A DNA stretch of 59,062 bases. Source: Salinisphaera japonica YTM-1. Its GTDB lineage: Bacteria > Pseudomonadota > Gammaproteobacteria > Nevskiales > Salinisphaeraceae. Location of the stretch: positions 1 to 59,062 of the forward strand of contig NZ_AYKG01000014.1 of assembly GCF_003788585.1 (NCBI RefSeq). The letters run 5' to 3'. The translations under genes and the position numbers were made by a program. Positions 51,054 to 58,883 of this stretch are shown one piece after another. Numbering within the stretch: position 1 is the first letter of the stretch; each line of letters starts with the position of its first letter. Below the pieces are notes generated by a model. The model was not told the origin of the DNA. It did not search any database and was given only the letters and a program-made list of their open reading frames with translations.

Positions 51054-51161
51054 GTGTCTGCAATCAGAGACAATTGACAGAAGATTGGGCACAACCGAAA
51101 TTCTGCTTCCCCATAACGAGCCGATCTGAAAATCGGCCATACCTGCAAAGGGAGCGGTTTG

Positions 51162-54100
51162 ATGCAAAGCATGCGATATGCGTTCTTTGCGGCTTTGATG
51201 GCGTGCACTCTCGCCGTCACAGGCTGTAGCGATCACAAAGATGTAGATCTGAACGGAAACAAAGGCAACGGGAGTGGCGCGCCCGATACCCCCGGCCAAA
51301 TGACCGATGACGACAACGACGGCGTGGCCGACGGCGATGACAACTGCCCGACGGTTCCCAATGCCAACCAGAAAGACACCGACGGCGATGGCTTCGGTGA
51401 TGCCTGCGATTCCGACGATGACGACGACGACATCCACGACAATCGCGACAATTGTCCGCTCGTAGTCAATCCGAACCAGGAAGATACGGACAATGACGGC
51501 GTAGGCAACGCCTGTGACGCCACCCCGAATACGCCGAACGACGACGACATGGACGGTGTGGCCGATAACGCCGACAACTGCCCCATGGTCTCGAACCCGG
51601 GCCAGACCGACAGCGATGATGACGGCCAGGGCGATGCCTGCGACGCCACGCCGAATGCCCCGAACGATACCGACGGGGACGGCATCATCGACAACACGGA
51701 TAACTGCCCGACTATCCCGAACGCTGACCAGCTGGACAGCGATAACGATGGCCTTGGCAACGTCTGTGACACCGACGATGACGGCGACGGCATTCCCGAT
51801 GGCAGTGATAACTGCCCGGTCAACGTCAACCCGAACCAACAGGATTCGGATAACGACGGCATCGGCGACGTGTGCGACAGCACGCCCAACGAAGACGACT
51901 CAGCGCGTGATACCGACGGCGACGGCATCAATGATGCAGTCGACAACTGCCCGCTAATTGCCAATCCTGATCAGCTCGACACCGACCGTGACGGCCTTGG
52001 CGATGTCTGTGACCCGGATAACGACAACGATGGTATTCCGGACGACGGCGACAACGACGGCGCCACCGGCAACAACGGCAACGGCGACAACGGCGACAAC
52101 GGCGACGATAACGACAGCATGAACGGTGGCATGGGTGGCACCCCGACCGACGGCGAAGGCGATAACGCCTGCACCGCCGGTAACACCGAAAACTGTGACG
52201 ACAACTGCCCCGTAACCCCGAACGCCAACCAGGCTGATACCGACGGTGACGGCATTGGCGACGTGTGTGACACCGACCGCGATGGCGACGGCGTCAACAA
52301 CGGCACCGACAACTGTCCGCTCATCCCCAATCGCGATCAGACCGATAGCGACGGCGACGGCGTGGGTGATGCCTGCGATAGCGACAACAACGATGGCAAT
52401 AACAACGGCGGCAACGACGCCGGCAATAACGATGCCGATAACGACGGCATCAATGACACCAACGACAACTGCCCCACGATCCCTAACCCCGATCAGACTG
52501 ATTCGGACGGCGACGGTGTGGGCGATGCCTGTGACCCGAGCGATGGCGCCGACGACGGCAACATGGGTGGCAACAACGGCGATGCTGATAACGACGGCAT
52601 CAATAACGGCAACGATAATTGCCCGATGACGCCGAACCAGAACCAGGCTGACCGCGATGACGACGGCACGGGCGACGCCTGTGATACCGACGACGGCGTC
52701 AACGAAGGTACCGATAACGGCCCCGGCAACGACTCCGATAACGACGGTATCGACGATGCCAACGACAACTGCCCGATGATCGCCAATCCGCGACAGGAAG
52801 ATCGCGACAGCGACGGCTTGGGCGATGCCTGTGATCCCAGCAACGGTACCGACAACGGTAACGGCGGCGACGACGGAAGTAATGGCGGTAACGGCGGCGA
52901 CGACGGCAGCACCGGCGGTAACGACGGCGATGACGGCAACACCGGCGGCAACGACTCAGACGGCGACGGCGTGCCGGATGGGATCGACAACTGCCCGATG
53001 ACTCGCAATCCCAGCCAGAATGACGTCGACAACGATGGCATTGGCGATGCCTGCGATACCGATAACGGTAACGAGGGCGCCAACGGCGATGCCGACGGTG
53101 ATGGCGTCAATAACAGCCAGGACAACTGCCCGATGATCGCCAACCGCGATCAGAAAGACAGTGATGGCGACGGCATCGGCGATGTCTGTGACGACACCCC
53201 GACGCAGATGAACGATTCGGACAACGACGGCGTTAACGACAACGTCGATAACTGCCCGATGACAGCCAACAGCAATCAGCTGGATACCGATAACGACGGC
53301 ATCGGCGATGTCTGTGATATCGACAAGGACGGCGACACCATCGACAACAGCTCGGACAACTGCCCGCTGACGGCCAACCCGCAGCAGACAGACACCGACG
53401 GCGATGGCGTGGGCGATGCCTGTGATGACACCAACAACAACGGCGCCGACAACGACGCTGATGGTGATGGTGTGGTCAATGACGACGACAACTGCCCGAA
53501 CGTGGCCAATGCCAATCAGCTCGATACCGACGGCGACGGCCAGGGCAACGCCTGTGACGCCGACGACGACAACGACGGCATCCTGGACGACGGCGACAAC
53601 TCAGGCACGCAGGGCGACAACGCCTGTACGGCGGGTGATCGCACGAACTGTGACGACAACTGCCCGCTGACACAGAACCCGGCTCAGGAAGACCGTGACG
53701 GCGACGGCGTGGGCGATGCCTGCGACTCAAGCAACGCGATCGCCTGTGGCACAAATCAGGACTTCGTCCCGATCACCGGCAGCACGGCACAGGTGACGCG
53801 TCAGCGTTCACCCTTCTGTCTCGGCTGCTCGATTCGCAATCCGGAGAACCTGATCGACGACAATCCGGATAACGTCTCGCGTATCTCGATCCCGTTCAAC
53901 GTGCTCAGCAACGCGGGCGTCACGGTCACGGATACGGCACGGATGTTCCCGGCCGGCTCGGAAGTTGCCTTCCTGGTCTCGCGTGAAGGTGGCCTGCTCA
54001 GTCGCAGCCTGCTTTCAGCCGTGTCGTTCGAGACGCTGAACAACGGCGTGCTTGCCTCGACGCTCGGCGACCTGCCGTTGACGATGCGCTTGTTTGACGT

Positions 54101-54239
54101 CATTAACGACGTGACCCAGCAAGCGCTGGTCTTCAGCTCTGACCAGCCCTTCAATGCGGGCCGTGTCCTGGTCGGCGGACTGGCCAATATCGGCAGCGTC
54201 GTGGATGTCTCCGCGGTCTGCGTGAGACAACCCCGCTAA
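51162..54239 (+). CDS. TSP3-repeat lipoprotein, 17 repeats (paralog 1)
   Basis: The 1025-residue product has a lipoprotein signal (LAVTGC, lipid Cys22) with Ser at +2, favouring the outer membrane. 17 thrombospondin type-3 units follow, each about 36 residues with DNCP ... N ... Q ... D.DGDG.GD.CD, which bind calcium and stiffen the chain. Gly/Asn/Asp-rich linkers lie between some units. Residues about 862-1025 form a four-Cys domain shared with the next two genes. The segment GDNACTAG...NCDDNCP occurs twice, before units 7 and 17. Surface stalk or adhesin is the likely role, inferred. GGGAG precedes the ATG. Confidence 0.8.
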   Translation: MQSMRYAFFAALMACTLAVTGCSDHKDVDLNGNKGNGSGAPDTPGQMTDDDNDGVADGDDNCPTVPNANQKDTDGDGFGDACDSDDDDDDIHDNRDNCPLVVNPNQEDTDNDGVGNACDATPNTPNDDDMDGVADNADNCPMVSNPGQTDSDDDGQGDACDATPNAPNDTDGDGIIDNTDNCPTIPNADQLDSDNDGLGNVCDTDDDGDGIPDGSDNCPVNVNPNQQDSDNDGIGDVCDSTPNEDDSARDTDGDGINDAVDNCPLIANPDQLDTDRDGLGDVCDPDNDNDGIPDDGDNDGATGNNGNGDNGDNGDDNDSMNGGMGGTPTDGEGDNACTAGNTENCDDNCPVTPNANQADTDGDGIGDVCDTDRDGDGVNNGTDNCPLIPNRDQTDSDGDGVGDACDSDNNDGNNNGGNDAGNNDADNDGINDTNDNCPTIPNPDQTDSDGDGVGDACDPSDGADDGNMGGNNGDADNDGINNGNDNCPMTPNQNQADRDDDGTGDACDTDDGVNEGTDNGPGNDSDNDGIDDANDNCPMIANPRQEDRDSDGLGDACDPSNGTDNGNGGDDGSNGGNGGDDGSTGGNDGDDGNTGGNDSDGDGVPDGIDNCPMTRNPSQNDVDNDGIGDACDTDNGNEGANGDADGDGVNNSQDNCPMIANRDQKDSDGDGIGDVCDDTPTQMNDSDNDGVNDNVDNCPMTANSNQLDTDNDGIGDVCDIDKDGDTIDNSSDNCPLTANPQQTDTDGDGVGDACDDTNNNGADNDADGDGVVNDDDNCPNVANANQLDTDGDGQGNACDADDDNDGILDDGDNSGTQGDNACTAGDRTNCDDNCPLTQNPAQEDRDGDGVGDACDSSNAIACGTNQDFVPITGSTAQVTRQRSPFCLGCSIRNPENLIDDNPDNVSRISIPFNVLSNAGVTVTDTARMFPAGSEVAFLVSREGGLLSRSLLSAVSFETLNNGVLASTLGDLPLTMRLFDVINDVTQQALVFSSDQPFNAGRVLVGGLANIGSVVDVSAVCVRQPR

Positions 54240-54292
54240 CCCAAAAGGGGCGGCCTTCGGGCCGACCCCGCCCAACGCATCGAGCGATGCTT

Positions 54293-54322
54293 AAAGGCGT
54301 AATCTTCGGATTGCGCCTTTTT
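54293..54322 (+). terminator. terminator after paralog 1
   Basis: Stem AAAGGCGTAATC/GATTGCGCCTTT has a UUCG tetraloop and a T-run. Its sequence resembles the terminator after paralog 2. Confidence 0.9.
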
Positions 54323-54881
54323 ACGTGCGATCAAGCATGAAGCCAGCCGTAGGCAGCCCGGTGATCACCCCATGCTCAGCGCTGACCGGCAAATACTCAC
54401 GCCGGCAACGCTGGACCTATTAGGGGTTGAATTCTCTCATACACCAGTTGATCGACAGACTTGGCCTGGCCGCCAAAACGCTCAGCGCGACACCGAGGGT
54501 GGCCATCAAATATGTCTACGCAGCACGAGCACGAACTATCGATCGTTCCTTTCGCTTCAACGGCTTGATCGATGTGATCGTTGGTCGATTAACTCAAAAG
54601 ACATCGTTCGACTAATAACCGTTTGCTACCATAAGAAATAAATTTTTATACTGCGCCGAATCGGCTTTTTATTATATTTTTACCAACTTATTAGATTCTA
54701 ATAAAATTGCGTAACATATAAAAATTATTATATTAATCATGTATTTAAAATTTTATCTTTGAGTCTTCATGAAAAAAAAACAAACCGTTCCGATTAATGT
54801 TGACGAGAAGCTAAAGCTTTGTAACTTTCTTGGACATCGGTTCTAAAAAGTTTTAGTACCGAAATCACAAGGGAGACTACA
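54323..54881. other. 559-bp gene-poor region with very AT-rich core
   Basis: From about 54640 to 54790 the sequence is almost entirely A/T, unlike any other place in the window. It directly precedes paralog 2, whose promoter must lie here. Two tiny frames (54427-54615 from TTG; 54769-54846 with 25 residues) lack good start signals. AAGGGAG precedes the paralog 2 ATG. An H-NS-like silencer would favour such DNA. Confidence 0.6.
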
Positions 54882-57062
54882 ATGTCCGATATCAAGTATT
54901 GGGGAGCGACCGGGCTTATAGCCTGTGCGCTACTGGTAACCGGCTGTAGCGACGATAAAGACGTCGATCTAGGCCAGGCCGATAACGGCAACGACAGCAT
55001 GCAACCCGTCGATACCGACGGCGATGGCATCAACGACAACAACGACAACTGCCCGGCGATCGCAAACCCGGACCAGACCGATACCGACGGCGATGGCATC
55101 GGCGATGCTTGCGATAACGACGACGATGATGACGGTATCGCCGATGGCCCGGACAACTGCCCGCTGACCTCGAATCCGGATCAGCAGGATTCAGACGGCG
55201 ACGGCATCGGTGATGCCTGTGATAGCGACCAAGGCAACGGTGACGGCGACGCAGATGGTGATGGCGTCAACAACGACGATGACAACTGCCCCACCACCCC
55301 CAACCCGGATCAGACGGATACCGACGGTGACGGCGTGGGCGATGTCTGCGATACCGATTCGGACGTCGCGGCATCTTCCTGCAGCTTTGGCGACAATGCC
55401 GCATTCTCGCCGATCGCGAACGCCGACGACGACAGCAATGATGTCAACGTGGCCTCCGGTGCTGACGGCGTGTGTCTGCTCTGCGGCGTACAGAATCCGA
55501 ACAACGCTATCGACAGCAACCTGGACAACGCGGCCCGTTTGAACACCACGGTCGGCGCTCTGGGCGGCAGCGCCTTCATCACGATAACCGGGAACCAGGA
55601 TTACTCCGGCAACCGTCGTGTCGGATTTGTTCTGGGGCGTCCCGACAACGTCCTGACGCTCGATCTCATTCGTAGTCTGGATGTCACGTTGTTCAACGAC
55701 GGTGAAGAAGTCGCCGACTCGAACGACTCGGACCTGCTGAATCTGGATCTACTGGGACTGATCGGCGACAATAGCCGTCAGCTGGCGCTCGTACAGACCA
55801 ACCAGACTTTCGATGCCATCCGTCTACGTTTGAACGGTGGCGTGAATGCGCTTTCGAATGTCGACGTATTTTCTGCCTGCGTACAGAACGGCACGATTCC
55901 GGATGGCGGTGAAGTCACTGACACCGACAGGCTTTCCAACGCCCTCTCGGGTCTGACCGCGCAGTTGACCGATCTTGGCAACGACAACGCGGTAAGCGAC
56001 GGACTCAACGATGCCGTCACCCGCGTCACCGACGCCTTGGCCGCCGCACTCAATGGGGGCAATACCCAAAATCTGTCGAGCGATGTGAACTCGGCGCTCA
56101 TGACTCTCCAGGATCAGCTGTCGCAGCTGACAATGGCCGGCGGCGACTTCTCGCTCGATAACCTGGTAACAAACCTCACAACCGGCCTGAGTGGGTTCAA
56201 TCCCGACGCTGGCGACAACGACAACCCGCTGGAAAATACGCTGAGCCAGCTTCAAGGGGCTCTATCCGGCCTGGGCGACGATAATGGAGGTAACGCCAGT
56301 GCGGCAGTACAGAATGCGTTGATGCAGGTTCGCGACGCGCTCGCCAGTCAGGATGCAGACGACGCATTGTCCAATGCCGCCCAGAGCGCGCTCAGCCAAC
56401 TACAAGTGGCGATTACACGGCTCGATGCTTCCAACGGCGCGGTATCCGATCCGCTGGCCAACGTTCTCGACAACCTGAACGGCACGATACAGAGCGTGCA
56501 GGATGGCAGTTCCGACAACCCGTTGCAGTCTCTGCTGGCCTCGTTGGCCAACGCCGATCTGGGCGAGATGAACGACAATGCGATCAAGCAGGGTCTCGAC
56601 CAGCTGCGCATGCAGCTGACTTCTGTGATTGGCGATGGTGATCCGGTCGCGACACTGACCAATACGCTGAGTCAGCTTCAGAACCGCCTGGCTGACAGCG
56701 GTAATGATGTCGACAACGACGTGCTCGAGAGTCTTTTGACCAACATCAAGAGCTCGATCGACGCCATCAATCTGAGTGACGGAACGACCGGTCTCTCAAG
56801 CGGTCTGTCCGGCGCCTTGGATACACTCGATAACTCACTGTCGAACATAAGCCTGACGGGCGATAACGGTGACGACGACGTCAACAATGCCCTGTCGTCG
56901 CTGGAGAACGCCCTCGACAACCTAGATATCTCTGATCTTCAGGATGGATCGGAGAACGGGCCAGGGGCTGGCTTGGTCGACGCTCTAAGCAATCTGCGAA
57001 CCACGCTCGGCGATCTACTGGGCGGGCTGCTCGGCGGCGTGGGCGACGTGCTGACGCCCTGA
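54882..57062 (+). CDS. TSP3-repeat lipoprotein with helical repeat tail (paralog 2)
   Basis: The 726-residue product has a lipoprotein signal (LLVTGC, lipid Cys22). The next residues SDDKDVDL nearly match those of paralog 1. Three TSP3 units lie at about 44-160. The shared four-Cys domain lies at about 167-334 ([28 protein letters not shown]). The remaining 390 residues are a predicted alpha-helical tail of loosely repeated NAL..L...L segments with Gly/Asp/Asn turns, ending [13 protein letters not shown]. No family is recognised for the tail. It could multimerise or bind a surface. Confidence 0.75.
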
Positions 57063-57108
57063 TCCGCTAGCCAACAACACGCCGCTCGGCAACGAGCGGC
57101 GGCTACCT

Positions 57109-57140
57109 AAAGACGCAATCCCTGGATTGCGTCTTTTTTT
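57109..57140 (+). terminator. terminator after paralog 2
   Basis: Stem AAAGACGCAATC/GATTGCGTCTTT with loop CCTG is followed by a long T-run. It is similar in sequence to the terminator at 54293. Confidence 0.9.
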
Positions 57141-57353
57141 GCCCGGCGTTTACAAATCGGGCGTATCGGCGATAGACAATATCCATAAGGTAACCGTAAT
57201 CGCCGCCGGGACAGCTGTTTGCGAAGACCTAAAAAATCTGAACATATAAACCATCAAAGCGCGACGCTGGATGAATAAAAACAATCATAAACGACCGACA
57301 GGTCGTGTAGCGTCAGCTGTGGGGATCAATCAAGCGTTTTCAGGGAGCGAGGC

Positions 57354-58883
57354 ATGTATCTTCATCGACCCATCGGCCGGGCTGTTCCATCCATTGTGCT
57401 AGCCATCGTGCTGGCCGGGCTATCCACAACGCCCGTGGTCGCCCAGACCGCCAACGCATCGGATACCGATGGCGACGGTATTGCCAACACGGTTGACAAC
57501 TGTCCGAACACGGCCAATCGCGTGCAGCGCGATACCGACAATGACGGCATGGGCAATGCCTGCGACAACGACATCGATAACGACGATATCGCCAACGATC
57601 AGGACAATTGCCCAACGCGCGCCAACCCGATGCAGGGGGACGTCGACGACGATGGCGTGGGCGATGCCTGTGACGTGAATTCCAGTCTCGCCGACAGCGA
57701 TACCGATGGCGTACCGGATCTTGTCGATAACTGCCCGGCCACGCCCAATTTTCAACAACAAGACGCTGACCGCGACGGTATCGGCGACGTCTGCGACCCA
57801 ACCCCGAATCAGAGCAATGACCAGGATTTCGATGGTATCGACGATGCCACCGACAACTGCCCACAGCGTGCCAACAACGACCAGAAAGATCGGGACGGCG
57901 ACGGGCTCGGCGATCTTTGTGATCCCGATGACGACGGCGACGGCGTGCCCGACGGCACCGACAACTGCCCGAACCTGGCTAACGCCGATCAGATCGATAG
58001 TGACGACGACGGCATTGGCGATGTCTGTGACTTCATGCCCAACATGTCCAATATCGAAACCGACACGGACGGCGACGGCATCGTCGACACCGACGATAAC
58101 TGTCCGTTCGTAGCCAACGGCGATCAGCTTGATGCCGACAACGATGGGCGCGGTAACGCCTGCGACGCCGACGACGATAACGACGGTATTGCCGACGATG
58201 GCGACAATTCGGGTGTCGAAGGCGACAACAACTGTTCGGTGGGCAACAACGCCCCCTGCGACGACAACTGTCCGCGCACGCCCAATGCCGCACAGGTCGA
58301 CAGCGATCGCGACGGCATCGGTGATGCCTGTGATACCGGCGAGCGCCTGGCCTGTGGGCCAAATCAGCCGTTCAAGCCGTTGACGATGCCCGACGTTGTC
58401 TTGACCAGCGATCTGCCAACGCTCTGCACGCCGCTGACGTGTGGCATCGACAACGAATCCAACGTGATCGACGCCAACCCGGACAACGCCACCGGCATCA
58501 GTCTCAGCCTGGACCTGCTGGGCAATCTCTTGAACGATCCGGCCCAGATCACGCTGACCGATACCAACGAAGCGCAATTTCCGCCCGGCACCGCGGTCGC
58601 GGTGATCCTGTCCTCTCGCGATACCCTGCTGAGCCTGGATCTACTGCCGTCGTTCACGGTCAGCGTACTGGGTAACGATCAGATCGTGGCTTCCAGCGAC
58701 GATACCGATCTGCTGGGCCTGGATCTGTTGGGGCTGGCCAATGACGAAAACCGGTCGGCGGTTGTCTTCAAGCCGGATGCGGCATTCAACGCCGTGCGGT
58801 TTTCTTTTGCCGGCACACTGAATCTGTTGAGCAGCGTGGATGTCTTTAACGTGTGTGTTCGACAACCCCTGACCGCGCCCTAG
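57354..58883 (+). CDS. TSP3-repeat secreted protein, 7 repeats (paralog 3)
   Basis: The 509-residue product has an ordinary Sec signal peptide (TTPVVAQ) with no lipobox, then seven TSP3 units at about 38-330. The segment GDNNCSVG...PCDDNCP precedes the last unit, as in paralog 1. The shared four-Cys domain lies at about 334-509 (CGPNQPF, CGIDNESNVID, LLGLDLLGL, VDVFNVCV). It should be released or weakly bound rather than lipid-anchored. Its stop codon TAG is formed at the junction with the MITE-like element, so the last residues may not be native. GGGAG precedes the ATG. Confidence 0.8.
   Translation: MYLHRPIGRAVPSIVLAIVLAGLSTTPVVAQTANASDTDGDGIANTVDNCPNTANRVQRDTDNDGMGNACDNDIDNDDIANDQDNCPTRANPMQGDVDDDGVGDACDVNSSLADSDTDGVPDLVDNCPATPNFQQQDADRDGIGDVCDPTPNQSNDQDFDGIDDATDNCPQRANNDQKDRDGDGLGDLCDPDDDGDGVPDGTDNCPNLANADQIDSDDDGIGDVCDFMPNMSNIETDTDGDGIVDTDDNCPFVANGDQLDADNDGRGNACDADDDNDGIADDGDNSGVEGDNNCSVGNNAPCDDNCPRTPNAAQVDSDRDGIGDACDTGERLACGPNQPFKPLTMPDVVLTSDLPTLCTPLTCGIDNESNVIDANPDNATGISLSLDLLGNLLNDPAQITLTDTNEAQFPPGTAVAVILSSRDTLLSLDLLPSFTVSVLGNDQIVASSDDTDLLGLDLLGLANDENRSAVVFKPDAAFNAVRFSFAGTLNLLSSVDVFNVCVRQPLTAP

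Follow-up and report, generated by a model that had tools for sequence, protein, structure and literature searches.

Three neighbouring genes of Salinisphaera japonica encode predicted envelope proteins that carry one shared domain on differing stalks

A stretch of 59,062 nucleotides from Salinisphaera japonica YTM-1 (contig NZ_AYKG01000014.1, hereafter the window) contains three neighbouring genes, named here genes 1, 2 and 3, whose products combine an export signal, a stalk of thrombospondin type-3 (TSP3) units and a shared domain. The reading that we favour, at even confidence, is that these are envelope proteins with a disulphide-stapled binding module on interchangeable stalks, most likely for attachment. 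Built as anchor, stalk and module, products 1 and 2 would be lipid-anchored and product 3 would be released. The TSP3 units, Cys-bridged and calcium-filled, would make a stiff spacer. The shared domain would be a galactose-binding-like beta-sandwich closed by at most two disulphides, one between the opening and the closing Cys and one within the CxxC pair. It would serve as a binding module that is kept off the membrane, with matrix, neighbouring cells or a surface polymer as the most likely ligand.

The shared domain measures about 165-180 residues in the three products. Pairwise alignments of the three copies over 167-175 columns gave identities of 26, 40 and 35% and, in the same order of pairs, blastp E values of 7e-14, 5e-26 and 9e-18. 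The pair scores were 169, 265 and 256, whereas 500 shuffles of each pair never exceeded 69; this corresponds to 21.5, 36.1 and 36.5 standard deviations. The three C-terminal regions might have failed to align or have matched different known domains. They aligned significantly and matched no known family. An initial annotation, made from the DNA letters alone, had listed four Cys, an N..N.ID motif, a VDV...CV end and, in two copies, LDLLGL, and all of these were seen. The middle Cys pair takes the forms CLGC, CLLC and CTPLTC. Genes 1 and 3 have their opening Cys in one alignment column and gene 2 in another, and LDLLGL is found in products 2 and 3 and not in product 1. The placing of the domain at the C-terminus held for genes 1 and 3, whose C-termini were read by eye as VDVSAVCVRQPR and CVRQPLTAP, and failed for gene 2, where the domain is internal.

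Searches of Pfam, NCBIfam and PHROGs with the window copies returned no naming family, and 46 diverse members of the domain gave isolated weak matches only (best E 0.003 in Pfam and 0.01 in NCBIfam). With a domain profile, none of 177,635 distinct PDB sequences matched, although the threshold was relaxed to E<=10. TasA/camelysin (PF12389, NF046066) was reached by one of the 46 members with E 0.003 (17.9 versus 22.5 bits) and by one of 46 with E 0.02. We took these matches as chance. Among the literature matches listed, no title or abstract opening on this domain was found, nor anything that joins Salinisphaera with thrombospondin, or MtsC with Myxococcus and cohesion. As far as the copies of Pfam, NCBIfam and PHROGs that were searched show, the domain appears to be a new family, spread over unlike stalks.

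The three open reading frames (ORFs) are uninterrupted. A TTG one codon upstream of the gene 1 start at 51162 offers a possible start at 51159. The initial annotation had called two lipoproteins and one secreted protein, and inspection by eye agreed: products 1 and 2 start with lipobox-type signals (VTGCS) and product 3 with a plain signal peptide. In products 1 and 2 the predicted lipid-bearing Cys is followed by Ser, which under the E. coli rule would send both to the outer membrane. The stalks had also been recognised correctly. Pfam TSP_3 (PF02412) scored 410.6, 83.7 and 200.4 bits (E 4.6e-126, 6.8e-24 and 2.3e-60) for products 1, 2 and 3, each time above the gathering score of 25, and the ORFs, unit counts and alignments confirmed 17, 3 and 7 units with the common domain downstream. 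Two Cys spaced by 20 residues are present in 27 of 27 units. D.D.DG motifs were counted 34, 6 and 13 times, numbers compatible with calcium binding by the units. The stalks are strongly acidic, with net charges of -215, -45 and -73 in products 1, 2 and 3.

The domain is not tied to TSP3, because many relatives carry it on other spacers, such as Big_2 repeats or Thr/Gly-rich runs. It was detected in 47 of 61 related genomes, including that of S. japonica, and in 17 of 20 genera (E<=1e-3). At E<=1e-5, samples of genomes gave 6 carriers out of 369 for the class (the own genome and two others of the order included), 5 out of 299 for the phylum (the own genome and four others of the same class) and 30 out of 296 for the phylum Bacteroidota, the query genome included. 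Named carriers are Salinisphaera hydrothermalis, a metagenome-assembled genome of the Lysobacterales, Brumimicrobium mesophilum and Cellulophaga sp. The Bacteroidota relatives tentatively mentioned in the initial annotation were thus borne out. Outside the genus, many relatives are without TSP3 and some have it (e.g. L030, L041, L064). The Brumimicrobium relative has about seven copies of the domain alongside SprB, cadherin-like and CshA-type repeats, which by name are adhesin repeats. Of the surface display or adhesion system first proposed, the export signals, the TSP3 stalks and the single shared domain stand, and the union of TSP3 and domain in one system does not. Surface display of the domain is plausible.

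The position of the domain differs between the two groups. Gammaproteobacterial proteins mostly have it once or twice, and last. Counts were restricted to ORFs whose stop lies within the locus, leaving out those truncated by a locus edge, and to a capped part of all matches. Of 43 such ORFs from gammaproteobacteria, 36 finish within 15 residues past the domain, and six of the remaining seven, including gene 2 of the window, belong to the gene 2 type. Of 10 from Bacteroidota, 7 extend more than 50 residues beyond the domain. Tandem copies are frequent there, with as many as 6 matches in a protein from one genome, or 7 by another count. A midpoint-rooted tree was built from 75 of 131 distinct rows, namely all 55 gammaproteobacterial and, at random, 20 of 76 Bacteroidota rows. 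Deep support was poor. The two copies of G362, a gammaproteobacterium from outside the order (L058 and L063), clustered with 16 of the 20 Bacteroidota rows (support 97/86), which suggests horizontal transfer. A plasmid search with two of the three domain copies gave no match, and 76 pattern stretches in viral contigs included none related to the domain. A bolder reading, somewhat less likely than not, is an undescribed family of disulphide-stapled, nearly Trp-free, galactose-binding-like modules that would act as a common binding head on whatever stalk a lineage has (TSP3, Big_2, Thr/Gly-rich or cadherin-like) and would have passed between Bacteroidota and the order to which S. japonica belongs.

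The fold was predicted with AlphaFold for the gene 2 copy and a Brumimicrobium copy. Both models are beta-sandwiches (predicted local distance difference test scores 75.2 and 74.4, predicted template-modelling score 0.77). Strands and short helices follow each other in the same order in both, except for one short strand, which is missing from the second model at a low-confidence place. Most of the 50 PDB matches that Foldseek listed per model are CBM29, CBM32, SUN, IFT25, APC10 or comparable entries, with CBM29 and CBM32 prominent. From the entry names we take these to be galactose-binding-like folds. The best E values were 1.5e-3 and 1.4e-4, and 0 and 19 matches reached 1e-3. A galactose-binding-like fold class is therefore likely for the modelled domain; homology to a named family is unproven. 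F5/8 type C (F5/8C, PF00754) gave no Pfam match with the three window copies at E<=10 or with the 46 members at E<=0.1. Homology to this family by profile was rejected, as hhalign with a narrow set of nine F5/8C rows gave no signal better than a Big_2 control.

Cysteine loss was followed in the wider alignment of 131 distinct rows (55 gammaproteobacterial and 76 from Bacteroidota). All four Cys are present in 41 of the 55 gammaproteobacterial rows and in none of the 76 Bacteroidota rows. Among the gammaproteobacterial losses, nine rows are without the opening Cys only, and three are without opening and closing Cys with CxxC kept. CxxC is gone as a pair in both rows that lost it, one of which is also without the opening Cys. 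In Bacteroidota the closing Cys is missing from 76 of 76 rows and the opening Cys is present in nine; both Cys of CxxC are found in 37 rows, one in 13 and none in 26. This pattern favours opening-closing and CxxC as two separate units.

Several results weigh against a disulphide-stapled binding module of this fold. Nine of the 55 rows have a closing Cys and no detected opening Cys, and 13 of the 76 Bacteroidota rows have a single Cys of CxxC, which both speak against strict pairing; some of the nine may be alignment ends. The two models came from the same 14 sequences with a different one placed first, and are therefore not independent. Query-normalised template-modelling scores were 0.27-0.49 over the 100 matches listed. 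An hhalign comparison of the domain with nine F5/8C rows gave 0.2%, compared with 0.1% for the Big_2 control. As the F5/8C set was narrow (9 of 16 matches listed, one below the family cut-off, several of one look-alike subfamily), this comparison tests superfamily kinship weakly. No Trp occurs in 54 of 55 gammaproteobacterial rows or in 66 of 76 rows from Bacteroidota, compared with a Trp content of 3.0% in the F5/8C rows, and no Tyr column is held by a majority in both groups. Aromatic ligand-binding residues are typical of carbohydrate-binding modules (CBMs). Given the near-absence of Trp, an aromatic sugar-binding face is not expected. The domain search also gave no match in 7 of 13 congeners.

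The near-absence of Trp also supports the main rival, in which the domain serves surface fibres as a structural brick or as an end cap, in the fashion of immunoglobulin-like repeats and without binding anything, and any adhesive part lies elsewhere or is absent. We consider this rather unlikely. It is backed by the tandem copies in Bacteroidota, which are mixed with immunoglobulin-like and cadherin-like repeats and would suit a structural brick as well as a binding module. Conservation points the same way: among polar residues the Asp of N..N.ID is conserved best (54 of 55 gammaproteobacterial and 53 of 74 Bacteroidota rows), and no fully conserved polar patch was seen besides it in the domain rows. 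In contrast, the usually single or double domain at the end of gammaproteobacterial proteins (36 of 43) holds the position expected of a head. More improbable are lipoproteins that face the periplasm and buffer calcium or space the envelope, with the domain bound to an outer-membrane protein or to peptidoglycan. In favour of this, lipoproteins of gammaproteobacteria mostly face the periplasm, the stalks are very acidic, and in G049 and G028 an OmpA-family-like gene (judged by eye) with a TSP3-like linker lies beside domain genes. However, gene 3 is without a lipid anchor, and the Brumimicrobium relative has repeats named for surface adhesins.

Gene 1 could also be read as a homologue of the myxobacterial cohesion protein MtsC (NF047638), a TSP3-rich surface protein by name, since NCBIfam gives it this name with 491.7 bits against a cut-off of 350. 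This is very improbable for the three proteins. The match consists of 10 stretches within the TSP3 repeats, genes 2 and 3 stay under the MtsC and Omp28 cut-offs, and the gene 1 end VDVSAVCVRQPR is by eye without a MYXO-CTERM-like membrane segment, in line with no MYXO-CTERM match in NCBIfam. Gene 1 also passes the Omp28 cut-off (341.9 versus 200), which indicates that the repeats drive both matches. NCBIfam would call gene 1 (window 51159-54239) MtsC or Omp28-related selenoprotein; the TSP3 repeats that lift it over both cut-offs are a likely source of misannotation.

Table 1. Coordinates of the three genes and their features in the window
Feature	Position	Strand	Basis or remark
Gene 1, with lipoprotein signal, 17 TSP3 units and the shared domain	51162..54239	+	lipobox by eye
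Gene 1 TSP3 stalk, 17 units, some separated by Gly/Asn/Asp-rich inserts	51306..53726	+	Pfam and unit count
Shared domain copy 1, without LDLLGL	53727..54236	+	alignment
Terminator-like hairpin and T run 3' of gene 1	54293..54320	+	predicted, z -3.7
Gene 2, with lipoprotein signal, 3 TSP3 units, the shared domain and a helical tail	54882..57062	+	lipobox by eye
Gene 2 TSP3 stalk, 3 units	55011..55352	+	Pfam and unit count
Shared domain copy 2	55368..55895	+	alignment; predicted model made from gene 2
Gene 2 tail, about 390 residues, heptad periodicity	55896..57059	+	similar tails in five congeners
Terminator-like hairpin and T run 3' of gene 2	57109..57136	+	predicted, z -7.2; also inverted repeat
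Gene 3, with plain signal peptide, 7 TSP3 units and the shared domain	57354..58883	+	signal by eye
Gene 3 TSP3 stalk, 7 units	57462..58334	+	Pfam and unit count
Shared domain copy 3	58341..58880	+	alignment

Three features had been overlooked in the initial annotation: the hairpins of Table 1, the gene 2 tail and the contig end. Gene 2 runs about 390 residues beyond the shared domain. This tail has a hydrophobic autocorrelation of 0.32 at lag 7 and, by eye, LxxLQxxLxGL-like repeats. Similar tails of 386-406 residues are present in orthologues from five congeners (G011, G004, G009, G001 and G006), and the G005 protein is without one. FUSC and other helical families matched the tail below threshold (FUSC E 8.5e-06, 25.1 versus 30.9 bits) and were taken as coiled-coil-like noise. 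The contig ends at 59062, 179 bases past gene 3. By synteny, the adjoining genes begin contig C31 (L140:1-3783), with osmC-, speD-, holA- and proA-like genes named by eye. A further domain copy may lie in the gap between the window contig (C14) and C31.

The three genes are probably separate transcription units. This is suggested by the predicted terminator-like hairpins after genes 1 and 2, together with a weaker one upstream of gene 1 (z -2.3), and the two hairpins after genes 1 and 2 speak against a single operon. The hairpin of gene 1 has imperfect arms and was missed by the inverted-repeat search. Comparison of the regions upstream of the three genes gave no convincing common element. An A+T-rich stretch (54640-54880) between genes 1 and 2 contains all four promoter-like sites that the scan found, a number at chance level (3.7 expected over the region).

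In each of the six congeners out of 13 that have the domain (G001, G004, G005, G006, G009, G011), a domain gene is flanked on one side by a homologue of trpC from the window and on the opposite side, to the extent visible, by that same region of osmC/speD, holA and proA (genes named by eye). Three same-family members outside the genus gave no match in the domain search. Five of the six congeners have one copy, and G011, like the window, has three. Counterparts of genes 1 and 2 in G011 are 90 and 88% identical (best local match). The third G011 copy (L046:6484-9513) is distinct from gene 3, with 18 TSP3 units and a lipobox-type signal. Its domain lacks CxxC and has the opening and closing Cys, which makes it a natural variant of use for disulphide mapping. 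In G049 and G028, a gene with a TSP3-like linker, OmpA-family by eye (L053:4776-5888 and L055:8150-9292), was seen close to domain genes.

Known systems share parts of this architecture. Thrombospondin/COMP wires (PDB 3fby, 2rhp, 1yo8, 1ux6) align with E 2.9e-39 to 2.4e-17; however, this is limited to the TSP3 repeats, and the shared domain is without a PDB sequence match. The similarity to MtsC is likewise confined to the gene 1 repeats. The galactose-binding-like folds nearest to both models in the PDB (CBM32/F5/8 type C, CBM29, SUN, APC10) differ from the domain, which has no Pfam match, no F5/8C profile link and hardly any Trp. The bacterial envelope protein TraB has a TSP3 linker said to bind calcium (PMC12045341, which cites Dai et al. 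2017 as having reportedly treated TSP3 in a bacterial OmpA), and secreted Saccharophagus laminarinases join TSP3 units with putative binding (CBM) modules (PMC2386152). TSP3 in bacterial envelope and secreted proteins is thus already known. OmpA and TraB likewise use TSP3 as linkers, whereas genes 1-3 had no OmpA family match at E<=1. Similarly, the laminarinases combine TSP3 with modules, and genes 1-3 are without a glycoside hydrolase domain match.

With a model of the shared domain, many lipoproteins and large adhesin-like proteins that now go unnamed could be annotated, and one purified domain would make the ligand of these proteins testable.

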